A stretch of 64,000 nt of DNA, from the NCBI RefSeq assembly GCF_001458215.1, contig NZ_CYTW01000001.1, forward strand, positions 682,001 through 746,000, written 5' to 3'. The stretch comes from Shimia thalassica. Lineage in GTDB: Bacteria; Pseudomonadota; Alphaproteobacteria; Rhodobacterales; Rhodobacteraceae. A program made the translations under genes and the position numbers. Position 1 is the stretch's first letter; the number at the start of each line of letters is the position of its first letter. Positions 24,468 to 35,058 of this stretch are shown piece after piece. The notes beneath the pieces were generated by a model, which was not told the DNA's origin, did no database searches, and was given only the letters and a program-made list of their open reading frames with translations.

Positions 24468-25509
24468 GAAACTTTTTGGATGGCTCGGGCGCCCCCTGCG
24501 CTCGGACCACACGAAAACACGCAAGCGTGGGCCACAAATCCATGTGATCATTCTGGATGGCACGATGTCCACGCTTGAGCCGGGACATGAAACAAACGCC
24601 GGACAGACCTATCGTCTATTGCAGGAAATGAACGGCGAGCTGACGCTTTACTACGAAGCAGGCGTTCAATGGCACACATGGCGCAGCTCCGCAGACGTTC
24701 TGATGGGGCGCGGTTTAAACCGACAGATCAGGCGGGCCTACGGGTTCCTTGCGTCCCGCTACCGTCCCGGCGACAGGATTTTCCTCATGGGGTACTCGCG
24801 TGGCGCATTTGCAGTGCGGTCGCTGGCGGGCGTAATTGACCGCGTGGGTCTGATCAGGGCCAATTGCGCAACCGAGCGGAACGTGCGCCAAATCTACCGC
24901 CTTTATGAGAAAAATCCTGACGGTGAAGCATCCAGAGCCTTTGCTCGGGAATATTGTCACGATCACGTCGAGATCGAAATGATCGGGGTCTGGGACACGG
25001 TAAAAGCGCTTGGTCTTCGCCTTCCTGTGTTGTGGCGCCTGACCGAAGAACAGCATGCGTTTCACAACCATCACTTGGGCCAGAGCGTGAAACACGGGTT
25101 TCATGCGCTTGCGCTGGACGAAACCCGCGAAGTGTTCGAGCCGGTTCTGTGGGAATGTCCTGACGACTGGCAAGGGCAGCGCGCGGAACAAATGTGGTTT
25201 CGGGGCGCGCATGGCGATATTGGCGGGCAACTTGGCGGGTTCGAGGCCGCCCGCCCGCTCGCAAACGTGCCACTGGTCTGGATGCTGGAATGCGCCGAGA
25301 CCTGCGGTCTTCCCTTACCGCCGGATTGGCAAAGCAGATTCCCGATGGATCCGCAGGCCCCGTCGGTTGGCACATGGCAAAGCTGGGGCAAAATGTTCCT
25401 GCTTCGCAAAGCCCGCGTTGTGGGGCTGGATCGCTCTGAAAAAATACACCCCACCGCCCGGGCCCATGTCGAAGCCGGCGCCCTCAAAGCGATTCAGGTC
25501 GCTGAGTAA
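24445..25509 (+). CDS. DUF2235 domain alpha/beta hydrolase
   Basis: This 354-residue protein is a DUF2235 hydrolase. The nucleophile elbow is MGYSRGAF (S118), with a likely acid at D184 in GVWDTVKALG and a histidine at H256 in FRGAHGDIGG. Members of this family include phospholipase toxins of type VI secretion (Tle1 type), but many are housekeeping hydrolases and no secretion genes lie here. The ATG overlaps the end of the molybdoenzyme gene by 23 bases, so the two are probably cotranscribed. Three to four basic residues (KTRKRG) precede the catalytic domain. Confidence 0.85.
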   Translation: MSLTRLGKKLFGWLGRPLRSDHTKTRKRGPQIHVIILDGTMSTLEPGHETNAGQTYRLLQEMNGELTLYYEAGVQWHTWRSSADVLMGRGLNRQIRRAYGFLASRYRPGDRIFLMGYSRGAFAVRSLAGVIDRVGLIRANCATERNVRQIYRLYEKNPDGEASRAFAREYCHDHVEIEMIGVWDTVKALGLRLPVLWRLTEEQHAFHNHHLGQSVKHGFHALALDETREVFEPVLWECPDDWQGQRAEQMWFRGAHGDIGGQLGGFEAARPLANVPLVWMLECAETCGLPLPPDWQSRFPMDPQAPSVGTWQSWGKMFLLRKARVVGLDRSEKIHPTARAHVEAGALKAIQVAE

Positions 25510-25524
25510 CCGATCCAAGGCGCG

Positions 25525-25572
25525 CCTTCTTCTGGCTCAAAATATCCCGGGGGTTCGGGGGCTGGCCCCCGA
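25525..25572. repeat. Intergenic repeat element, copy A
   Basis: A 25-base core, CTTCTTCTGGCTCAA then AATATCCCGG, is followed by a hairpin (TCGGGGGC-TG-GCCCCCGA, 25555-25572). A second copy with the same core and a different hairpin lies at 56568-56615. Both sit between convergent stop codons. It looks like a REP-type element. Confidence 0.7.
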
Positions 25573-25584
25573 TCGTTGCGAATG

Positions 25585-26256
25585 TTAGTCCCGCCAGTCC
25601 ACCATGTCATCCAACCGCGCACGGTCGGTGCGAAACCCGTTGGCCGGATGTGTGTCGTCCCGATACCCGAATGAAATTGCAGCAAGGATCAGCTGTTCTT
25701 TGGGAATCCCGAAATGGGCGCGCACCGTATCAGCATAAAACGCCAAAGCGGCTTGGGGGATGGTGGCAATTCCTTGGGCTTGCGCACTCAGACAAAACGC
25801 AGTGATAAAGCCTCCGCAATCCAGCGCGCCATAGGCCCCCAGTTCGGCCGCGGTTGTAATCACCGCAACATGGGGGGCTCCAAAAAACGCGTAGTTCTCG
25901 CGCATCTGTGCGACGCGCCCCGCTTTGTCGCCGCGTCCGATCCCGACCGCTTCGTACAACTGCAAACCACATGTCTGACGGCGGGTTTTGCGTGCACCGC
26001 TATAGCCTGACGGGGGGGCAAAATCGGTCGACGCCGCTTCTGTATCAAAGGCGTCGAGCATGACCTTCCGAAAGGCGTCGGTTGCCACGCCCGATGTGAG
26101 CGTCACCTGCCATGGCTGTGCGTTGCACCATGATGGCACGCGACCCGCATCGGACAATATGGTCTCGATCACATCGCGTGGTACGGGTTTGTCTTGAAAC
26201 CCGCGACAGGAATGGCGTTCAGCGAGCAGGTCTTGAAGGGCAGAATGATGTGTCAT
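25585..26256 (-). CDS. Nitroreductase family protein
   Basis: This 223-residue flavoprotein has the nitroreductase-fold FMN-binding N-terminus (ERHSCRGFQDKPVPRDVIE, in parts), the PSWCNAQPWQV helix and the C-terminal SFGYRDDTHPANGFRTDRA. Members reduce quinones, nitro compounds or cofactors with NAD(P)H as FMN-bound dimers. The physiological substrate is unknown. It is the last gene of the long minus-strand set that begins near 32340, 5 bases after the zinc-ribbon gene. Confidence 0.88.
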   Translation of the reverse strand: MTHHSALQDLLAERHSCRGFQDKPVPRDVIETILSDAGRVPSWCNAQPWQVTLTSGVATDAFRKVMLDAFDTEAASTDFAPPSGYSGARKTRRQTCGLQLYEAVGIGRGDKAGRVAQMRENYAFFGAPHVAVITTAAELGAYGALDCGGFITAFCLSAQAQGIATIPQAALAFYADTVRAHFGIPKEQLILAAISFGYRDDTHPANGFRTDRARLDDMVDWRD

Positions 26257-26261
26257 TGTCT

Positions 26262-27371
26262 CTATTGGTTCTGTGCCATGATATAGCCGACTGCAGCCGC
26301 GGCACAGAGCCCCAGCACGACGGCAATTGCAATTTTCCAGCTTGAATAGGGGCGTTCGCCCTGCACCCGTCCGGTTTGGCCGTTGACGACAAACCGATAG
26401 GTCTTTCCACGATATTTATAGGCCGCCAGCCAAACAGGCAGAAGAATGTGTTTGAAGGTTACGTCGCTGACTTTGGTGTCGACCTGATGGATCATTTGGC
26501 GATCTCCACCGATGTCAAAACGCACATCCCGTTCGATGGTCCGGTCCATCAGGGCACGTGCCTCGTCATATCCTTCGGGCAAATCAACGGCGTATCCTTC
26601 GGCGCGAAACCCCGCGAGGTATTCGGGTGCATAGGGTTGCAAATCCCGCAGATCCCAAGGTTGCAACGCATCGGTATAGCTTTTGGGAAGGGATCGAGAC
26701 GCCAGAACCAGCACATCGTCAAAAAAACGTGCAACCCGACCAGAGACCGGTGTCCAGCGGATCTTTTGAACCTGTTGTTGTTGGCGTTTGCCATCAACCA
26801 TCACCGTGCGGGTCTCGTAATAGACAATACCGCGCTGGCCGGAATACCGCGAGGCCGTTTGCGCGTCATAGGTCCAGAAAGGCACATAGATGCCGTCCAT
26901 CCTGCGACCCTTTCGGGCATAGTCTTTCAACCCGTTCGGGGCAAACCAGAGCCGCCCCAGCCAGTCGCTCATGGCTTTGTGTGCTTCGCGTTCCGTCCAT
27001 TTGAAGGGCAGCACGGCACGTGGTTTTATGTGGCGGTGGGTGCCTGTGTCCGTCACGACGGGTGTGGCACAGAACGGGCATTCCAGACTGTGATTAAGGG
27101 CATCAAACTCGACCTGAGCCGCGCAGTTCGGACAGGTCGATACGCGCGTTTCTTCTATTTCTTGCTGTGGCAGTTGATTGTTCAGCGCGTCGCGAAAGTC
27201 CAGTTCACGGATGACAGGGGCCTCTTGACCAACCAGCATGGTGGTGTGCCCGCAGTGGTCGCAGGTCAGCGTTCCTTTGGTGGGATCAAACCGATAGTCC
27301 GCGCCGCATTGTTCACACGGAAACCGGTGAAGTTCTTCGGGTGTGGGGGGCAGCGGCGGAGTTTGTGTCAT
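26262..27371 (-). CDS. Double zinc-ribbon, tail-anchored membrane protein (YdjG-like)
   Basis: This 369-residue protein has two TFIIB-type zinc ribbons in its first 100 residues (CEQCG...CDHCG and CPNCA...CPFC). A middle beta-rich region with Trp/Tyr-rich PFWTYDAQTASRYSGQRG follows, and a single C-terminal membrane helix (KIAIAVVLGLCAAAAVGYIM). Pipelines often call such proteins primosomal-like, which is misleading; it has no helicase motifs. The architecture resembles Bacillus YdjG of the PspA-YdjGHI membrane-stress set. I chose ATG 27371 over a TTG at 27392. The helix would place the ribbons in the cytoplasm. Confidence 0.75.
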   Translation of the reverse strand: MTQTPPLPPTPEELHRFPCEQCGADYRFDPTKGTLTCDHCGHTTMLVGQEAPVIRELDFRDALNNQLPQQEIEETRVSTCPNCAAQVEFDALNHSLECPFCATPVVTDTGTHRHIKPRAVLPFKWTEREAHKAMSDWLGRLWFAPNGLKDYARKGRRMDGIYVPFWTYDAQTASRYSGQRGIVYYETRTVMVDGKRQQQQVQKIRWTPVSGRVARFFDDVLVLASRSLPKSYTDALQPWDLRDLQPYAPEYLAGFRAEGYAVDLPEGYDEARALMDRTIERDVRFDIGGDRQMIHQVDTKVSDVTFKHILLPVWLAAYKYRGKTYRFVVNGQTGRVQGERPYSSWKIAIAVVLGLCAAAAVGYIMAQNQ

Positions 27372-27419
27372 TGCAAGTGCGGTCTCGGTCAAAAGGGGAA
27401 AGAAAACAGGCGTGCCGGA

Positions 27420-27956
27420 TCAGAGGTATTTATGAAGGACGCGTGGAACCATGATCCGCAGCGCATTGTCTTTTAACAGAAAATGTCGGCCAACATGAAA
27501 GATGATATGGGCCGCTATGACAATCAAAAGGCCATTAAAGACAATTTCATGCACCTCTTCGGCGAAGTTGTGCAGCCCCTTGCCGCCGATTCCGGGGGTG
27601 ATCTGAAACCAGTCAAACGCCCGAATGGCAAAGGGGGCCGCAAGACCGGCAAATGCGCCTGTGGCGACCATTATTGGCACGCCGATTTGCAACACCTTGT
27701 GCGAGAGTTCATGAAAGCGTTTGCCCCAAGCGGGAAGTTTCGGACCGGGACGCCCTGCCAAACCTTTGCGCACATACATGCCCAGCCAGAGGGCCGTGAC
27801 CAGCGCCAGCAAAACGCCCATACCGGCGTGCGTCGACAGGGCATCCGCTTTGGCAAGAGCGCCCTGCACGTCGTCTTCCGGTTCAACAAGGAAAAAATAA
27901 AGGATCAGCCCAGCAGAGAGCCAATGCAACCATTTCAGGAAAGAGCGACGGTTCAC
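27420..27956 (-). CDS. Cytochrome b561-type di-haem membrane protein
   Basis: This 178-residue protein has four membrane helices with paired histidines typical of bacterial cytochrome b561 (KWLHWLSAG, STHAGMG, FHELSHKVLQ, EEVHEIVFNG, AAHIIFHVGRHF). It should bind two b haems and move electrons across the inner membrane, commonly from quinol or to superoxide in this family (CybB). The start is GTG, with GGAG 6 bases upstream. It stands inside the minus-strand stress-like gene set, 97 bases after the SPFH gene and 48 bases before the zinc-ribbon gene. Confidence 0.85.
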   Translation of the reverse strand: MNRRSFLKWLHWLSAGLILYFFLVEPEDDVQGALAKADALSTHAGMGVLLALVTALWLGMYVRKGLAGRPGPKLPAWGKRFHELSHKVLQIGVPIMVATGAFAGLAAPFAIRAFDWFQITPGIGGKGLHNFAEEVHEIVFNGLLIVIAAHIIFHVGRHFLLKDNALRIMVPRVLHKYL

Positions 27957-28052
27957 AGCAATTCTCCGTTTTGGTGGCCTTGTTGCCTATTCATACGCGC
28001 CTTCGGTCGAAAAGGAACGACCTCTCGCGCAAAGCGTCGGAACTTTCGCCTG

Positions 28053-29195
28053 TCAGGTGCCGGGGGGCGGTGGCGGAAGGATGGTAAAAAGCTGCGCCAG
28101 TTCGATCACATCTTCTGCGCGTTTCCAGCCGTCCTGACCCGCGGTCCAGACATAGGTTTCGCGCGTGACCTCGCCAGCGGTGGCCATGCGACCAAGTGCG
28201 GCCTTTGAAAACGGACCTTTGGTGGCCCCGTTTTCGGCGATGTGCCAGACATGTTCGACCGGAGGGGGCGGGGGCGGCGCGTTATACGCAGCGGAGGCTT
28301 GAGGGGCAGGGGCGGCAGCGGGCTGTGCCGGACGCGCGCCCCAAGGGCCCTGATTGGCCATTTGCTGGGCCATGGCCATACCAACGCCCATGCCCATTCC
28401 TGCACCCATGCCGGAATTCGGGGTCTGGGCGGCGGCAGTCATGGCTTCTGCTGCCGAAAACTGGGTGTATCTGCCCAGATCGCCGACGATGCCCATTGAC
28501 GTGCGCTTGTCCATGGCGGCTTCGACAGCGGGGGGAAGCGAGATGTTTTCGATATAGAACTCTGGCATCGACAGGCCGTATTCTGCCAGCGTGCCCGAAA
28601 TCTCGGCTGTGATCAGTTTGGACAGATCAGCGGTGTTTGCGGCCATGTCCAGCACCGGAATACCCGATCCAGCAATGACGCGGCTGAATTCCTGAACGAT
28701 GATATTGCGGATCTGAAAGCTGATTTCATCCATGGTGAATTCGCCATCGGTCCCCACAATCTCGGTCAGGAAACGGGCGGGATCCACAACGCGGATCGCA
28801 TAGGTCCCAAAGGCACGCAACCGCACAGGGCCAAATTCGGGATCACGACAGATGATCGGGTTTTTTGTCCCCCACTTGAGATTGCCAAAGCGGGTTGTAC
28901 TGACAAAGTAGATTTCGGATTTGAACGGCGACTTAAAGCCGTGATCCCAATGCTGAAGGGTTGTCATCACCGGCATGTTGTTTGTCTCGAGCATATAAAG
29001 GCCGGGTGTGAACACATCCGCAAGTTGGCCTTCATGCACGAACACGGCTGACTGGCTTTCGCGAACCGTCAACTTGGCACCGTATTTGATTTCGTGGCCC
29101 TCGCGTTCGAACCGCCAGACCAACGTGTCGCGCGTGTCATCAACCCAATGGATGACGTCGATGAATTCACCGGTCAGAAAATCGAAAATACCCAT
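28053..29195 (-). CDS. SPFH-domain protein with C-terminal GYF_2 domain (YdjI-like)
   Basis: This 380-residue protein begins MGIFDFLTGEFIDVIHW, has an SPFH (virion-core/YdjI type) domain to about residue 240, a Met/Gly-rich low-complexity stretch (about 250-275), a Pro/Ala linker and a GYF_2-like domain (VWHIAENGATKGPFSKAALG, about 312-370). No membrane helix is seen, so it is probably recruited to the membrane by a partner, as YdjI is by YdjG/YdjH in Bacillus. The ATG at 29195 fits the conserved N-terminus. It lies 22 bases after the DUF2927 gene. Confidence 0.85.
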   Translation of the reverse strand: MGIFDFLTGEFIDVIHWVDDTRDTLVWRFEREGHEIKYGAKLTVRESQSAVFVHEGQLADVFTPGLYMLETNNMPVMTTLQHWDHGFKSPFKSEIYFVSTTRFGNLKWGTKNPIICRDPEFGPVRLRAFGTYAIRVVDPARFLTEIVGTDGEFTMDEISFQIRNIIVQEFSRVIAGSGIPVLDMAANTADLSKLITAEISGTLAEYGLSMPEFYIENISLPPAVEAAMDKRTSMGIVGDLGRYTQFSAAEAMTAAAQTPNSGMGAGMGMGVGMAMAQQMANQGPWGARPAQPAAAPAPQASAAYNAPPPPPPVEHVWHIAENGATKGPFSKAALGRMATAGEVTRETYVWTAGQDGWKRAEDVIELAQLFTILPPPPPGT

Positions 29196-29217
29196 CAGGC
29201 GTGTCTCCTTGCGACGG

Positions 29218-30141
29218 TCAGTAAATGCGGCCCGCCTGTTCGCGAGCCAGAATGTGGACGACGGGGCGTGCCTGCTCCAGTGACATGCCCAGCTGAAGGC
29301 GCGGGTCATACAGGATCGCAAGCAGCGACTCGTCATGAGTTGTCAAAAGCGCGAATTCATCATCATCGTTAAAGATGGACGGCCGCGCAGTGGGGCTGTC
29401 GTTGGCAAGGCCCAGCCCTTGTGCAATTTCTTCGTGATAGCACGACTTGCGCATCAGGTCCGGATGTTCGCTGCGCACCAGAGCAACAGCCTTTTTGTAG
29501 TCATGATCATTGCCTTCGGAAGAGAAGGCCACAACCAGACAATCGATGGAACGTTGCACGTTCAAAAAGAGCGACATGGTAGCCGTGCTGGCACCGGGGA
29601 TGATCTGGCGCAGGCGTCGGGCCAGCTGATCTTTGTCATCTTCCCCCATTACCAGAACGTGGAAATTGGGCCGTCCGGAATTATAGCTGATGGCGTGATT
29701 TGTGACGCTCGCCAGCCGCCCGACATACCCCTGAACAAGCGCGGTATCCTGAGCGCGCATGTCCGACGAGACCGAAGCGCCATACTCTACGCTGACGCGC
29801 ACAGGGCCGGACCACCGGCGCAATTTCCCCGCGGTTCCGTTTGCAGGCTCGAGCCCACCGCCGCTTGCATATTCGTCATAAAAGGCAATCTGTTCGAAAT
29901 TGCGGGCCATCATATCCGGCGTATAGGGCGTGTCCGGACCGCCGCCATCGGTGCGCAAAAGACCGCGCGCCAAAAGATCGGCCTGTACCCGACCATAATA
30001 GATCTGAAGATCCCTGCTGGCATCCGACTGCACCTGTGGTGCGGGTTTGGGCGCAGGCGGGGGGCTTGTTGTGGGCACGACTTCGCAGGCTGCCACAAGT
30101 GACAGCCCCAACATCAAGATGGATTTGCGAAACCGTCCCAC
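29218..30141 (-). CDS. DUF2927 lipoprotein, putative zinc-protease fold
   Basis: This 307-residue exported protein has a lipoprotein signal, KSILMLGLSLVAAC, with the lipobox cysteine at about residue 19, then a Pro-rich linker. The C-terminal half is DUF2927; CYHEEIAQGLGL (about 237-248) resembles an HExxx metal-binding helix and is followed by a downstream DDDEFALLT segment. Peptidase activity is unproven. The start is a GTG giving RFRK before the hydrophobic core. It lies 6 bases after telA, so it is the envelope-facing member of this gene set. Confidence 0.75.
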   Translation of the reverse strand: MGRFRKSILMLGLSLVAACEVVPTTSPPPAPKPAPQVQSDASRDLQIYYGRVQADLLARGLLRTDGGGPDTPYTPDMMARNFEQIAFYDEYASGGGLEPANGTAGKLRRWSGPVRVSVEYGASVSSDMRAQDTALVQGYVGRLASVTNHAISYNSGRPNFHVLVMGEDDKDQLARRLRQIIPGASTATMSLFLNVQRSIDCLVVAFSSEGNDHDYKKAVALVRSEHPDLMRKSCYHEEIAQGLGLANDSPTARPSIFNDDDEFALLTTHDESLLAILYDPRLQLGMSLEQARPVVHILAREQAGRIY

Positions 30142-30147
30142 AGTGGT

Positions 30148-31347
30148 TCAGCTTGCAGGAAGCGACGCCGAGGCCGAGTCACCCAGACCGGATGTGCGCG
30201 CCTTGGCCGCCGCGAGGGTGTCGCGCAAATCCGCTTCCATTTTCTGGAGATCCGCTTCGGCGGCGCTGCGTTTTGCTTTGCCTTCATCCGCAATCTCGAG
30301 AGATTCCTGAATGGTGCCGATCAAGTCCGCATTTGCCTGTTTCACGGCCTCGATGTCAAAGACACCGCGCTCCATTTCCTGACGGATGACCTTGTTGCTT
30401 TCGCGCAGGTTGGCAGCGTTCGAGGTCAGCAATTCATTGGTCAGATCATTGGCTTCGCGCACTGCCCCCGCAGCTTCTGCGCTGCGTTGAATGGTGACGG
30501 CTTGGGCCAGCTGGTTTTCCCAAAGGGGGACAGTGTTGACCAGCGTAGAATTGATCTTGGTGATCAGGCTTTTGTCGTTTTCCTGAACAAGCCGGATCGA
30601 CGGCAAGGACTGCATGGTGACCTGACGGGTCAGTTTGAGGTCATGCACACGGCGTTCCAGATCATCCCGTGCGGCGCGAAGATCACGCAGTTCCTGCGCT
30701 TTCATCACCTGTTCATCTTCGGGTGCGGCTTGGACCTCAGCCTCTTTGGCAGGAATGTCCGTTGTATCCAAAGCGGTGATCTTTGCTTCGCCCGCCGCAA
30801 TATAAAGTGCCAGCTCATCATAGAAGGCGAGTGTTTTTTCATAGAGAAGATCAAGCGATTTGATGTCTTTCAACAACGTGTGCTCGTGGCGCAAAAGCTC
30901 TTCCGTGATCCGGTCGATCTGTCCCTGAACCTGCTCGTACTGGGCAGTGAACTTGGCAAACGGGGCCGCACGCCCCATCAGTTTTTCCCAAAAAGACCGC
31001 TCGCGGCGCACATCCAGTTCAGAAACCGAAAATCCGCGGATGGTGGTAACGATGTCGCGCAGGCTGTCACCGGCCGGGCCTACATCTTTGTTGCGCACAT
31101 CGGCGAGCATGGCCTGGCTGATCTCTTGCAGTTCGGCCTGTGCCTTGGATCCGAAATGTACGATGGAACCGGTGTCGCGCATGTCCAGCTCATCCATGCG
31201 ACGCGTGATTTCGGCACTCAGAGGTGCATCAGCCTCGGCAAGCGGAACAACGGCACTGGCCTCGGATGGTTCGGCCAATTCGACGGCTGTTACATCTTCA
31301 AGCTCTTTCAATGCGGCTTGGGCCTCTAGCGCGGTCTTCTCGGACAT
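30148..31347 (-). CDS. Toxic anion resistance protein, TelA/KlaA family
   Basis: This 399-residue TelA-family protein is almost wholly helical. LSAEITRRMDELDMRDTGSI, FSVSELDVRRERSFWEKLMG and RLVQENDKSLITKINSTLVNTVPLWENQLA are stretches typical of the family. Plasmid TelA contributes to tellurite resistance, but chromosomal members such as Bacillus YaaN sit beside xpaC and respond to envelope stress. GAGGTG lies 5 bases before the ATG. It follows the XpaC-like gene by 4 bases, which matches the xpaC-yaaN pair. Confidence 0.88.
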   Translation of the reverse strand: MSEKTALEAQAALKELEDVTAVELAEPSEASAVVPLAEADAPLSAEITRRMDELDMRDTGSIVHFGSKAQAELQEISQAMLADVRNKDVGPAGDSLRDIVTTIRGFSVSELDVRRERSFWEKLMGRAAPFAKFTAQYEQVQGQIDRITEELLRHEHTLLKDIKSLDLLYEKTLAFYDELALYIAAGEAKITALDTTDIPAKEAEVQAAPEDEQVMKAQELRDLRAARDDLERRVHDLKLTRQVTMQSLPSIRLVQENDKSLITKINSTLVNTVPLWENQLAQAVTIQRSAEAAGAVREANDLTNELLTSNAANLRESNKVIRQEMERGVFDIEAVKQANADLIGTIQESLEIADEGKAKRSAAEADLQKMEADLRDTLAAAKARTSGLGDSASASLPAS

Positions 31348-31351
31348 GGAC

Positions 31352-32257
31352 TCACCTCTCATAGGTTTGGGTGCCAGTGACACCCTCGCGCTGCAGCCTG
31401 TCGCGCAGCACTTCGATTTCAATTGTCAGGTCGCTTTTGTCATCCAACAAGAGCCTTTCTGTACGGGCGGCGAAATTCTGCTCTAGGTCGTCGAGCAGGG
31501 CCTCGTAGTCTTTCCGCGCTTCGGGGTCCCGATTGCGGGCATAAACGTCCGAGAACTTGATGGTCGCGTCGCGGGCACCCATCAAGTAAACGCCGAGATA
31601 TTTTCGTGCAGCCGTCAGATCGCGCGGATCTTCTTCAACGGTGCGGAACAACCGGCGCGCGGCCGTCTGGAACTGGGCAACGCGGGCCTCGAGGCCGCGA
31701 TCGCCGCAACGTTTGATGGCGTCGCCCATGGCCTCAAGGTGGCTTTCGGCCCCTTCAATGGCGCGGGCCACACGGTCGTTCTGAAAGTGATCGACACCTT
31801 CCATCCCCTTATCGCTCAGAGGATCAGGCCCAAAGGCCATCATGTGCAAAACGGCGCCAACCACGGCATAGATGATCGGAGCGGCGATACCACCAGTGGC
31901 GGCCCATCCCGCAAGCGCGAGACCGCCCCCGGTCAAAAGCGATCCCAGAATTTTGCGTGGCAGCGCCGGACGTCTTGCGACCTTGCGGGCCTCATAGGCT
32001 TCTTGCGCCAACAACCCTTCGCGGGTCAGCCACGCGGCAAGAAGCAAAGTACCAAGAGCCAGCAGGTTTAGCGCCATCGCAACCGGACCATCGCCAAAGG
32101 CCTGCCAAATCAGGGGGAAGGGGGCGAAAAACAAAAGGTTGGCGCGTCCGCCGGCACGACTGCGCCGCGCGCCCTCGAACGGGGCGGGCTGCGGCGGTCG
32201 GTTTTGTGATTGGGGGGTGCCGGTCGGGCTATGCTCTCCGCCGTATCGCTGTGCCAT
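31352..32257 (-). CDS. XpaC-like 5-bromo-4-chloroindolyl phosphate hydrolysis family protein
   Basis: This 301-residue protein has a Pro/Gln/Arg-rich cytoplasmic N-terminus, three or four hydrophobic segments (about 40-145, including LLFFAPFPLIWQAF and GGIAAPIIYAVVGAVLHMMAFG), and a helical C-terminal domain. This is the layout of XpaC. The family name comes from a colony phenotype and does not establish phosphatase activity. Its ATG shares one base with the stop of the 27-aa upstream peptide (TGATG), indicating translational coupling. Telomeric in the set, it is followed by telA. Confidence 0.8.
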   Translation of the reverse strand: MAQRYGGEHSPTGTPQSQNRPPQPAPFEGARRSRAGGRANLLFFAPFPLIWQAFGDGPVAMALNLLALGTLLLAAWLTREGLLAQEAYEARKVARRPALPRKILGSLLTGGGLALAGWAATGGIAAPIIYAVVGAVLHMMAFGPDPLSDKGMEGVDHFQNDRVARAIEGAESHLEAMGDAIKRCGDRGLEARVAQFQTAARRLFRTVEEDPRDLTAARKYLGVYLMGARDATIKFSDVYARNRDPEARKDYEALLDDLEQNFAARTERLLLDDKSDLTIEIEVLRDRLQREGVTGTQTYER

Positions 32258-32340
32258 CAGACGCCCCCGGAAATTGAAACATACAGGATCAATACGAGCA
32301 GCAGCACATAGGCCAATTTTTGCAAAGCGGTGCCCGACAT
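32257..32340 (-). CDS. 27-aa single-helix membrane peptide coupled to xpaC-like gene
   Basis: An ATG at 32340 is preceded 8 bases upstream by AGAGGAAC. The 27-residue frame has a short polar start (MSGTALQK) and then one hydrophobic helix (LAYVLLLVLILYVSI), ending SGGV. Its TGA overlaps the ATG of the next gene as TGATG. Start signal, composition and coupling suggest a real membrane micropeptide and leader of the xpaC-telA set. I know no named family for it. Confidence 0.6.
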   Translation of the reverse strand: MSGTALQKLAYVLLLVLILYVSISGGV

Positions 32341-32428
32341 CTGGCATGTTCCTCTGAATACCTGCTGTAAACTTAAGCAGTCCAGCATGATCTTGCTAGG
32401 GGGAACATAGCACAGTGTACGTCAGAAA

Positions 32429-32498
32429 ATCCGGCAATTTTCCTTTGTTCATAATTTCTTGGCATCGAGGCGCAAAGTTTGAACAAAGTCTGCCGGAT
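32429..32498 (-). terminator. Compound inverted repeat after rluB
   Basis: Two nested pairs of perfect arms occur: ATCCGGCA/TGCCGGAT (32429-32436 and 32491-32498) and CTTTGTTC/GAACAAAG (32443-32450 and 32481-32488), around a 30-base loop. On the minus strand it starts at the rluB stop and is followed by TTTTC. It probably ends rluB transcription and lies upstream of the 27-aa peptide operon; a regulatory role is also possible. Confidence 0.5.
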
Positions 32499-33334
32499 CA
32501 TTTCCGCTTTGTCGGCTTCGCACGAGAGGTCGGGCCGGGCTTGGGCGCGTTGGGGTTGCGGCGCTTGCGTTCCGGTTTCCGGCGGGTTTCCGGCGGTGTC
32601 GCACCGTCCAGGCCCAATTGATCCCGCATGACGCGGCGACGGATTTCTTCGACTTCACCCGACTTCAGATTACCAAGCTGGAATGGCCCGTAAGATACAC
32701 GGATCAACCGGTTCACACCCATTCCGACGGCTTCCATGGCGCGGCGAATTTCGCGGTTGCGCCCCTCGCGAATGCCAACGGTCAGCCAGGCATTCGCCCC
32801 CTGTTGGCGATCCAGCGTCACTTGCATGGGCTGGAATTTTTCGCCTTCGATCACGATGCCCTTGCGCAAAGGATCAAACGTCCCGTCGGTGGGGCGACCG
32901 TTGACGCGGACCCGGTATTTCCGAAGCCAGCCTGTCGAGGGCAATTCAAGCTGACGCTTGAGCCCGCCATCGTTGGTCAACAACAGCAGACCTTCAGAGT
33001 TGAGATCGAGGCGCCCAACGGTCATGACCCTAGGCAGCGTCTCGGGCAGTTCGTCAAAGATGGTCTTGCGTCCCTGTTCATCTTTGTGGCTGGTCACCAG
33101 CCCCGTGGGCTTGTGATACAGCCACAGACGTTCGGGCTCAGGTTCGGACAAAGGCTTGCCGTCGACGGTGATCTTGTCCTCAGCCGTGACATTCAATGCC
33201 GGGCTTTGGATTTTGCGACCATTGACGGTCACACGACCGGCTTCGATCATGCGCTCGGCCTCGCGGCGGCTGGCGACGCCTGCGCGGGCCAGAACTTTGG
33301 CGATGCGGTCGCCTTTGGGTGTTTCTTGGGTCAT
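32498..33334 (-). CDS. rluB: 23S rRNA pseudouridine synthase RluB-type
   Basis: This 278-residue enzyme has an N-terminal S4 RNA-binding domain (RIAKVLARAGVASRREAERMI, in parts) and the RsuA/RluB catalytic core with the aspartate in VGRLDLNSEGLLLLTNDG. The GIREGRNREIRRAMEAVG segment and a very basic C-terminal tail (RRKPERKRRNPNAPKPGP) are typical of RluB over RsuA or RluE. It converts a uridine of helix 80-93 region in 23S rRNA to pseudouridine. It is divergent from tadA. Confidence 0.88.
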   Translation of the reverse strand: MTQETPKGDRIAKVLARAGVASRREAERMIEAGRVTVNGRKIQSPALNVTAEDKITVDGKPLSEPEPERLWLYHKPTGLVTSHKDEQGRKTIFDELPETLPRVMTVGRLDLNSEGLLLLTNDGGLKRQLELPSTGWLRKYRVRVNGRPTDGTFDPLRKGIVIEGEKFQPMQVTLDRQQGANAWLTVGIREGRNREIRRAMEAVGMGVNRLIRVSYGPFQLGNLKSGEVEEIRRRVMRDQLGLDGATPPETRRKPERKRRNPNAPKPGPTSRAKPTKRK

Positions 33335-33397
33335 GGAGGTGTCCTAACCCGCTTTGGGGGATTGCGAAAGGGGGCTTGGCAGGGCACATCAACAACT

Positions 33398-33850
33398 ATG
33401 GTGTTCACAAGTTATATGGAACAAGCGCTGGAAGAGGCGCGAGCGGCGGCGAAACGGGGAGAAGTGCCCGTGGGCGCTGTGATCGTGTCGCCAGAGGGCA
33501 AGGTGGTTGCGCGCGCCGGAAACCGTACGCGCGAGTTGCATGACCCCACCGCCCATGCCGAAATCCTTGCCATGCGTCATGCCTGTGCAAAATTGGGCAG
33601 CGAACGGCTTGTTTCGCATGATCTTTATGTGACGCTTGAACCCTGTCCGATGTGCGCCAGCGCAATTAGTCAGGCACGGATCGCGCGGGTGTATTATGGG
33701 GCGGCCGATCCGAAATCCGGAGGTGTGGCACAGGGGCCGCGCGTGTTTTCACATGCACAAAGCCATCATGTGCCGGAAGTCTATGATGGGATTGCCGCCG
33801 CCGAAGCCGAAACCCTTTTGAAAGACTTCTTTGCGCTTCGGCGGGAATAG
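33398..33850 (+). CDS. tadA: tRNA-specific adenosine deaminase
   Basis: This 150-residue cytidine-deaminase-fold enzyme has the zinc and proton-shuttle motif HAE (53-55) and PCPMC (82-86), with GAVIV and YYGAADPKSGG typical of TadA. It deaminates A34 of tRNA-Arg(ACG) to inosine and is normally essential. I chose the ATG at 33398, with AGGG 14 bases upstream; an ATG at 33416 is the alternative. A long in-frame upstream extension antisense to rluB was rejected as non-coding. Confidence 0.95.
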   Translation: MVFTSYMEQALEEARAAAKRGEVPVGAVIVSPEGKVVARAGNRTRELHDPTAHAEILAMRHACAKLGSERLVSHDLYVTLEPCPMCASAISQARIARVYYGAADPKSGGVAQGPRVFSHAQSHHVPEVYDGIAAAEAETLLKDFFALRRE

Positions 33851-33882
33851 GAAACGGGGCCGTTTTGCCAGCCCCGCCTTAA

Positions 33883-35058
33883 TTAGGCGTCGATCACAAA
33901 AATCTCTCGCGGGATGTCCGCAAGCGGTTTGCCGCCTTCGGGTGTGATGACAAAGCTTTCGGTGATCGCAAGACCCCATTCTGGTGTCCAAAGGCCGGGC
34001 ATCAGGTGAAACGTCATGTTTTCCTCGATCCGCGAGGTGTCGCCGGGCCGCAAGCTCATCGTGCGTTCGCCCCAATCCGGGGGATAGCTGAGACCAATCG
34101 GATAGCCGGTGCGGTTGCCTTTGGTATATCCGGCTTTGGCAAAGCTCTCATAAACACATGCGGCGACCTCTTCGCAGGTGACGCCGGGGCGTGCCGCTGC
34201 AAAGGTGTCTTCAATCGCCCGCAGAACGGCACCTTCTGCGCGCCGGATGTCCTCGGGAGGAGAGCCGAGAAACAGGGTGCGGCTGATGGGACAGTGGTAA
34301 CGGTGATAGCATCCCGAAATCTCGAAATATGTGGCCTCTCCTTTGGTAAGAGGGCGGTCGTTCCATGTGATATGTGACGCCGAGGCCTCGAGCCCCGAGG
34401 GCGCAATGGGGGCGATCGCAGGATAATCACCCGCCAGTCCGGGAAGTCCCGCAACACCGGCGGCCTGCACCTCGGCGACCAGTTCGTGCTTCGGGCGTCC
34501 TTCCCGAAAACCTGTGCGCAGGGTCGCGTGCATATGCGCGCTCAATTGTCCGGCTTTGCGCATCAGGGCCAGTTCTGTGTCGCTTTTCACGGCACGTTGC
34601 CAGTTCACAAGACCCGTTGCATCCTCAATCACATCGCGCCCAAAGGCGGTTTCGAGAACACGGTGCGATGCCGCCGAATAGTAGTAATTGTCCATCTCAA
34701 CCCCAAGGCCTGATGTCCAGTCGCGCTCTCTCAGCAAGGTCACAAGAGAATCATAAGGGTGATGCACGGGGTGCTGAACATGCTCCTCGGGCCAGTCGAA
34801 CAGATTTGACGGATCAAGCCAGGACGTCTGGGCCGCGCCGGGTTTGTCCTGTGTGCGCCCCCACCAAAGCGGTGATCCACTGGAATGCAGAATGACGGCT
34901 TGCGGGACATAAAAGCTCCAACCGTCATAACCTGTCAGCCATGCCATGTTGGACGGGTCGGTGACGATCAGGGTCTCGATCCCCTGTTGTGACATAGCAT
35001 TTCTGGTGCGTGACAGCCGGTCATCGTATTCGGCCTTTGTGAAATCTGATGATGCCAT
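33883..35058 (-). CDS. M24-family ectoine hydrolase-like protein (DoeA-like)
   Basis: This 391-residue pita-bread-fold protein closely recalls DoeA, the ectoine hydrolase that opens ectoine to N-alpha-acetyl-diaminobutyrate: LIVTDPSNMAWLTGYDGWSF, GVEMDNYYYSA, CYHRYHCPISRT, RTGYPIGLSYPPDWGERTMS. Other ectoine or hydroxyectoine genes (doeB, eutD partners, uehABC) are absent here, so the substrate could differ. I took the ATG at 35058, one base after the stop of the MBL-fold gene; a start at 35094 overlapping that gene is possible. Confidence 0.8.
   Translation of the reverse strand: MASSDFTKAEYDDRLSRTRNAMSQQGIETLIVTDPSNMAWLTGYDGWSFYVPQAVILHSSGSPLWWGRTQDKPGAAQTSWLDPSNLFDWPEEHVQHPVHHPYDSLVTLLRERDWTSGLGVEMDNYYYSAASHRVLETAFGRDVIEDATGLVNWQRAVKSDTELALMRKAGQLSAHMHATLRTGFREGRPKHELVAEVQAAGVAGLPGLAGDYPAIAPIAPSGLEASASHITWNDRPLTKGEATYFEISGCYHRYHCPISRTLFLGSPPEDIRRAEGAVLRAIEDTFAAARPGVTCEEVAACVYESFAKAGYTKGNRTGYPIGLSYPPDWGERTMSLRPGDTSRIEENMTFHLMPGLWTPEWGLAITESFVITPEGGKPLADIPREIFVIDA

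Follow-up and report, generated by a model that had tools for sequence, protein, structure and literature searches.

In Bacillus subtilis, the sigmaW regulon includes both xpaC-yaaN and pspA-ydjGHI (PMC3498285), and PspA is brought to the membrane by YdjI and YdjG/H (PMC8581546). Each of these two gene sets has been connected with envelope stress in Gram-positive bacteria. A Listeria lmo1967 (TelA) mutant is cited as having a 4-fold higher sensitivity to nisin and a 2-fold higher one to tellurite (PMC12791056), xpaC is raised with liaFSR in Enterococcus faecium and cited within CesSR resistance in Lactococcus lactis (PMC10269926), and telA of Rhodobacter sphaeroides is named as a tellurite locus (PMC6955997, citing O'Gara 1997). 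Here we describe a gene cluster of Shimia thalassica, on the minus strand at positions 26262-32340 of the 64,000-nucleotide stretch analysed (the window), in which an XpaC-TelA pair and an SPFH-zinc ribbon pair are joined around a DUF2927 lipoprotein. Its conserved gene order and the co-occurrence of its parts indicate that the cluster is a real, conserved and functionally linked module.

The S. thalassica cluster shares features with each of the described systems. In B. subtilis xpaC-yaaN and Listeria lmo1966-lmo1967, as in S. thalassica, XpaC directly precedes TelA, but those pairs stand without SPFH, zinc ribbon or DUF2927, and in Vescimonas the next gene after XpaC-TelA encodes a TPM-domain protein. 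Similarly, pspA-ydjGHI pairs an SPFH protein of the Band_7_1 family with a membrane protein of zinc-ribbon type, and PF13421 also matches in B. subtilis. In contrast, the S. thalassica cluster lacks PspA, its SPFH protein carries a GYF domain and a proline tail, and XpaC-TelA and DUF2927 are added. The S. thalassica zinc-ribbon protein, which has ribbons and a helix, is a candidate counterpart of YdjG, and the R. sphaeroides telA locus, from the same bacterial family, has the gene name in common. Among open-licence papers, our literature search found none describing a composite of TelA, XpaC and SPFH, and none on DUF2927. The cluster is a new combination of known parts, and what is new within it is a conserved micropeptide gene, a probable link between DUF2927 and the metzincins, and the proline tail of the SPFH-GYF protein. 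TelA and XpaC are widespread but lack a mechanism, and a conserved operon that connects them with SPFH and zinc-ribbon proteins, and whose genes are retained or lost as one, provides a defined complex for experiments in marine bacteria that are easy to work with.

The genes of the cluster run head to tail in the following order, with Pfam E-values in brackets:

32257..32340, minus strand: 27-amino-acid single-helix micropeptide, MSGTALQKLAYVLLLVLILYVSISGGV; the first gene of the cluster, a short hydrophobic open reading frame at a conserved position
31352..32257, minus strand: XpaC-like membrane protein, PF10112 'Halogen_Hydrol' (3.9e-24), with two hydrophobic helices
30148..31347, minus strand: TelA/YaaN-like soluble protein, PF05816 (3.2e-106), without a hydrophobic helix
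29218..30141, minus strand: DUF2927 lipoprotein, PF11150 (9.6e-60), with lipobox LVAAC
28053..29195, minus strand: SPFH (Band_7_1) protein, PF13421 (1.8e-100), with a C-terminal GYF_2 domain, PF14237 (5.9e-21)
27420..27956, minus strand: cytochrome b561-type membrane protein, PF01292 (1e-12), accessory
26262..27371, minus strand: double zinc-ribbon protein with a C-terminal hydrophobic helix; ATG at 27371, alternative TTG at 27392

The matches of XpaC, TelA, DUF2927, Band_7_1 with GYF_2, and cytochrome b561 all exceed the curated cut-offs. Among named proteins, the nearest ones belong to Shimia and related roseobacters. The peptide stop and the XpaC start overlap in TGATG (32255-32259), and the gaps that follow are 4 bases (XpaC-TelA), 6 (TelA-DUF2927), 22 (DUF2927-SPFH), 96 (SPFH-b561) and, before the zinc-ribbon gene, 27 or 48 for the TTG or ATG start, respectively. 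This spacing on a common strand suggests an operon. An earlier note on this DNA had counted seven genes plus the peptide on one strand; the named proteins do share the minus strand, but they amount to six genes and the peptide, and the only candidate for a seventh, a nitroreductase gene at 25585-26256, lies outside 26262-32340.

Two gene pairs joined and kept together in Rhodobacteraceae

Conservation was assessed in a family sample of 120 genomes, one per genus, and the surroundings of TelA were taken from 60 of the 105 TelA-positive genomes. In these 60 loci from 60 genera, tblastn located XpaC in 59, DUF2927 and SPFH in 57 each and the zinc ribbon in 54, with identical order and strand wherever they were found. 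Some of the missing genes reflect contig ends, while L035, L048 and L084 truly lack the second half at this place and L045 truly lacks DUF2927. A second sample of named genomes, restricted to the best 80 of 542 loci, comprised roseobacter and other Rhodobacteraceae genera, alphaproteobacterial metagenome-assembled genomes and one record titled Enemella evansiae, which shares its TelA with one family genome and may be mislabelled; three of these loci duplicate loci of the first sample. Within the best 80, DUF2927, SPFH and TelA were each present in 80, XpaC in 79 and the zinc ribbon in 72, the misses of the latter being mostly short contigs. The earlier note had named the lack of a conserved neighbourhood in related genomes as the result that would speak against its proposal, and we find the opposite, as gene order is kept across both the 60 and the 80 loci.

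In addition to their order, the presence of the genes is strongly coupled. TelA, SPFH and XpaC each score above the cut-off in 105 of the 120 family genomes. TelA and SPFH agree in 118 (104 with both, 14 with neither, 2 discordant; Fisher p 3e-16, uncorrected for shared ancestry and so overstated), and in both exceptions the surviving gene lies about 120 bases or less from a contig end. Between TelA and XpaC, concordance extends to all 120 genomes (105 with both, 15 with neither, 0 discordant). Of the 104 genomes that have both TelA and SPFH, 96 hold them within 6 kb of each other. The TelA and SPFH halves are thus kept or lost together in Rhodobacteraceae, and the claim that the two Bacillus-type sets are fused here is borne out by a junction conserved across both samples of loci and by the concordance in 118 of 120 genomes.

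The distribution of the pairs outside the family provides a view of how this composite may have arisen. Among 190 genomes of the class, most of them from other families, a strong SPFH match occurs in 9, and TelA adjoins SPFH in 7 of these 9: S. thalassica's own genome, two more family members, and G250, G176, G183 and G236, the last four of which carry XpaC-TelA-SPFH-zinc ribbon without DUF2927. Two genomes (G267 and G131) have TelA and SPFH apart. In a phylum-wide sample of 299 genomes, SPFH matches strongly in 19 and TelA in 8 of those outside the class, and the three that carry both have them on separate contigs. We examined 18 SPFH loci (17 of the 19 outside the class and one inside), in 16 of which a zinc ribbon adjoins (10 strong and 6 weak matches), while one further locus ends at a contig edge. 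No PspA, TelA or XpaC was found within the retrieved stretches of these 18 loci, indicating that the SPFH-zinc ribbon pair needs no PspA-type partner alongside. Among three Bacillota records retrieved, XpaC and TelA are annotated together in two and SPFH in none. Joined pairs were seen only in Alphaproteobacteria, with DUF2927 between them only in Rhodobacteraceae. Given that the pairs are apart elsewhere and joined in Alphaproteobacteria, the presence and order of the genes, rather than gene trees, suggest that two older pairs were fused in that class and that DUF2927 was probably inserted later, toward Rhodobacteraceae. At one of the SPFH loci (L228, genome G315), the SPFH-zinc ribbon pair lies downstream of genes judged by eye to resemble ilvC, psd and pssA; such a connection to phospholipids would be consistent with a function at the membrane.

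Micropeptide, DUF2927 and the SPFH-GYF protein

The first gene of the cluster is a conserved gene by comparison across loci. In 121 of the 122 loci that could be scored, a short hydrophobic open reading frame ends between -5 and +4 nucleotides relative to where XpaC starts; discarding 3 duplicate loci leaves 118 rows, and 22 more loci went unscored as the start pattern missed them. An alternative start rule places the frame in 130 of 137. It is 20-47 amino acids long, mostly 27 or 29, and takes the form MSGTGLQKLAxVLLxVLxx...GG. This position-based search was used in place of tblastn, which detected the peptide in just 11 of 60 loci. Shuffled upstream stretches yielded a comparable frame in 24 of 2440 cases, and the ratio of non-synonymous to synonymous differences (pN/pS) is 0.40 (n=40) and 0.43 (n=53), with pS saturated. 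The same scan ahead of other genes returned 1/116 for RluB, 0/116 for DUF2927, 2/141 for SPFH and 0/145 for TelA. Two controls ran contrary to this, with 11/119 ahead of the zinc-ribbon gene and 30/50 ahead of the nitroreductase gene; for the latter, we presume that the zinc-ribbon gene, with its hydrophobic end, is the source. Of the four loci from outside the family, only L093 has a comparable frame before XpaC; L092 has a weak one further off, and L094 and L096 have none. In the one annotated Paracoccus record examined (L248), XpaC and the peptide are both missing beside TelA. As a lysine stands ahead of the single helix, our guess is that the N-terminus probably lies inside. The operon gains a conserved micropeptide. 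In three loci (L034, L045 and L081), a second small hydrophobic frame (MSKxTFYFSxxVLxxVxxxQSGY...-like) occurs between rluB and the micropeptide.

The DUF2927 lipoprotein carries a distinctive motif:

29398..29442, minus strand: DUF2927 codons 234-248, C-x-H-E-E-x-x-Q-x-x-G-x-x-N-D, an apparently altered metal site relative to distant members

Metzincins are recognized by the signature HExxHxxGxxH and a Met-turn. DUF2927 proteins of the operon share the pattern C-x-H-E-E-x-x-Q-x-x-G-L-x-N-D...P-S-I-F-N-D, and E-E-x-x-Q is present in 138 of 139 rows (136 rows after duplicate removal); the exception, L032, reads E-E-x-x-H then N-H, an intermediate retaining two histidines. Distant members instead show C-x-x-H-E-x-x-H-x-x-G-x(2-3)-H. 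A set of 30 rows from 25 loci, mostly of other families, divides into 19 with EExxQ, 1 with EExxH, 3 without the motif and 7 with HExxH and a third histidine. In 6 of these 7 the third histidine is at position 12, one place beyond where classical metzincins have it, and a methionine occupies the Met-turn position in 2. All seven pass the DUF2927 Pfam cut-off (of the two L221 rows, one does so only together with its in-frame neighbour) and were matched again in a second search. Comparison by hhalign aligned the HExxH profile with the operon DUF2927 profile over 187 columns with the motifs in register (probability 99.1%, E 1.9e-18). A search of solved structures with the HExxH profile listed 52 sequences at E values of up to 10. 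Metzincins account for 50 of them, none individually significant; they belong to four families, namely leishmanolysin (the best, E 0.015), matrixins, archaemetzincin and astacin. The operon DUF2927's own profile matched no metzincin. Thus, distant DUF2927 members resemble metzincins in carrying HExxHxxG and a third histidine, whereas the operon branch has Glu, Gln and Asp in place of all three histidines. These comparisons point to DUF2927 as probably a metzincin-like zincin family, whose operon branch is probably a pseudo-protease or holds a different metal site, and so propose an identity for DUF2927 that includes a conserved altered site. On a DUF2927 tree, the HExxH label needs 2 changes against a shuffled mean of 6.7, with 15 of 37 inner branches unresolved and long branches, and two motif-less rows sit among the HExxH rows. 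A lipobox pattern, scored on stop-to-stop frames, appears in 104 of 139 DUF2927 rows.

Additional DUF2927 copies were also seen. A second gene with EExxQ lies elsewhere in the S. thalassica genome (G000:C2:130373-130972; L109:8771-10174) and also in the relatives G055 and G141, and in one alphaproteobacterial genome (L219, G278:C1:44000-58000) seven matches to DUF2927, several with EExxQ, fall within about 20 kb, a local expansion.

In the SPFH protein, a proline run is followed by the GYF_2 domain and then a tail such as ILPPPPPGA. In S. thalassica these elements are:

28098..28247, minus strand: GYF_2 domain, residues 317-366 of the SPFH protein (PF14237, 5.9e-21)
28056..28076, minus strand: PPPPPGT C-terminal tail, residues 374-380 of the SPFH protein

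PPP occurs within the last 25 residues in 136 of 143 SPFH rows (133 of 140 without duplicate loci), and the GYF core sequence GP(F/Y) is present in 135 of 143. The same GYF and proline design is found in four non-family operons and in several SPFH proteins of other classes. GYF domains bind proline-rich segments, and it is our guess that they bind the proline tails of this cluster. The zinc-ribbon protein, which has Pfam ribbon matches only below the cut-off, contains two CxxC..CxxC pairs and a hydrophobic helix at 354-372 (TTG form); its eight-cysteine pattern is kept by 129 of 131 rows, or by 126 of 128 once duplicates are removed. Of 114 zinc-ribbon rows, 34 have an N-terminal PP.P motif. 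In two loci (L234 and L239), SPFH proteins beside zinc-ribbon genes end in a segment that is helix-turn-helix-like by eye in place of GYF.

Proposed role and alternative explanations

We propose, with a probability of about 0.5, that the cluster is a chromosomal, vertically kept module for inner-membrane integrity, assembled from the two older pairs. By this mechanism, which we infer, the zinc-ribbon protein through its C-terminal helix and XpaC through its N-terminal helices would anchor a cytosolic SPFH-GYF oligomer and TelA to the inner membrane. The GYF domains may grip proline tails, both their own and, in some cases, the zinc-ribbon protein's proline-rich N-terminus, thereby cross-linking or opening the SPFH array. 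On the periplasmic face, the lipid-anchored pseudo-metzincin DUF2927 would bind, probably without cutting, peptides that have become exposed or envelope proteins that are misfolded; within the membrane, the micropeptide could help couple both sides. The output would be protection of the membrane against membrane-active agents, with tellurite as one read-out. The SPFH and zinc-ribbon part would act like YdjI and YdjG/YdjH, and TelA would be a client or effector rather than PspA. A fuller picture, in which a PspA-free envelope surveillance system specific to Rhodobacteraceae uses the pseudo-metzincin to sense damage, the peptide and XpaC to relay it, and TelA with a zinc-ribbon-anchored, proline-tail-closed SPFH-GYF array to remodel the inner membrane, is tentative, and we are doubtful of it as a whole. 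The sensor chain of the earlier note, made of the zinc ribbon, SPFH and the lipoprotein, is likewise conjectural.

Several observations weigh against an integrity module. Outside the family, TelA without SPFH and SPFH without TelA are both common, indicating that neither requires the other in general. In 8 of 104 family genomes TelA and SPFH are unlinked (on another contig or 37 kb away, some at contig ends); these 8 genomes nevertheless retain both. In addition, our literature search met no phenotype, transcript, interaction or structure for the cluster in any member of the Rhodobacteraceae, apart from the naming of telA as a tellurite locus of R. sphaeroides.

One alternative is that the cluster is primarily a resistance operon for tellurite, a toxic oxyanion, with the envelope link secondary, in keeping with the R. 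sphaeroides locus (PMC6955997) and with the name that the PF05816 family bears. Plasmids carry TelA as well, with 597 records that include 551 of predicted conjugative type. However, 591 of the 597 matches are less than 60% identical, and the cluster holds a fixed chromosomal place by rluB (RluB in 48 of the 60 family loci by tblastn and in 68 of the best 80 of 542), with TelA in 105 of 120 genomes. Such a fixed place and wide presence would be expected of a housekeeping role and not of a response to a rare ion. Consistently, the effect cited for the Listeria mutant is larger for nisin than for tellurite (PMC12791056). We therefore judge a primary tellurite function to be unlikely.

The earlier note suggested that TelA could stand in for PspA, which would make the cluster an equivalent of the phage-shock system. 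It was right that PspA is absent, since PF04012 has no match anywhere in the S. thalassica genome at the Pfam level, and PspA above the cut-off is likewise missing from 98 of the 120 family genomes, while the zinc ribbon and SPFH, the PspA recruiters of B. subtilis, are retained. The substitution by TelA, of which the genome has a single copy, found no such backing. TelA was rejected as a PspA homologue, as the comparison of their profiles by hhalign gave a probability of 2%, and its distribution is not complementary to that of PspA, with TelA in 19 of the 22 PspA-positive genomes (Fisher p = 1.0). The 18 SPFH loci elsewhere in the phylum, whose retrieved stretches showed neither PspA nor TelA, also argue against this model, and it seems to us a poor prospect. 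Searches of solved structures by sequence returned no relative of TelA or XpaC, and a wide TelA profile reached chance-level matches only.

A further alternative is that DUF2927 is an active enzyme with Glu, Gln and Asp as metal ligands, making the module a periplasmic machine for proteolysis or quality control. The presumed catalytic Glu is retained, and the near-invariance of the substituted residues (E-E-x-x-Q in 138 of 139 rows) exceeds what is expected for decay. The operon copies have nonetheless lost all three histidine ligands, with the L032 intermediate keeping two, and we hold this version to be quite improbable. Finally, conserved clustering without a common function, through drift-limited gene order, fits the frequent retention of the flanking rluB but is very improbable given the concordance across 118 of 120 genomes, seven of which have the genes split (across contigs or by 37 kb) where both contigs are not clearly cut, and given that the genes next to the cluster vary on its opposite flank (nitroreductase in 11 of 60 loci, b561 in 7).

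Accessory genes and surroundings

Downstream of the cluster lies a frequent but not constant neighbour:

25585..26256, minus strand: nitroreductase-family protein, PF00881 (1.6e-28), 5 bases downstream

It is present in 11 of the 60 family loci by tblastn and in 45 of the best 80 of 542. Sigma-70-like sites number 6 against 2.8 expected, some of them weak ones within the cluster, and none precedes the peptide gene on the minus strand. An Rfam search of 25000-34000 gave no match to an RNA element. An anti-phage defence system found no support, as PADLOC gave just three matches, all to the zinc-ribbon protein and with E 0.017 or worse.

Of the two additions that had been proposed for this locus, a periplasmic lipoprotein and a di-haem cytochrome, the DUF2927 lipoprotein is conserved (57 of 60), whereas cytochrome b561 was rejected as a core part and is accessory, being found in only 7 of the 60 family loci by tblastn and 23 of the best 80 of 542. 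Its di-haem character is suggested by its family. Between SPFH and the zinc ribbon, 54 loci could be compared, and 8 have a homologous b561 and 4 another b561-type gene, in 10 different loci. A Pfam check of one gap gene per type placed one above the cut-off and one slightly below. The different b561-type gene occurs in L037, L058, L075 and L087, a repeated insertion of b561-type genes at one site.

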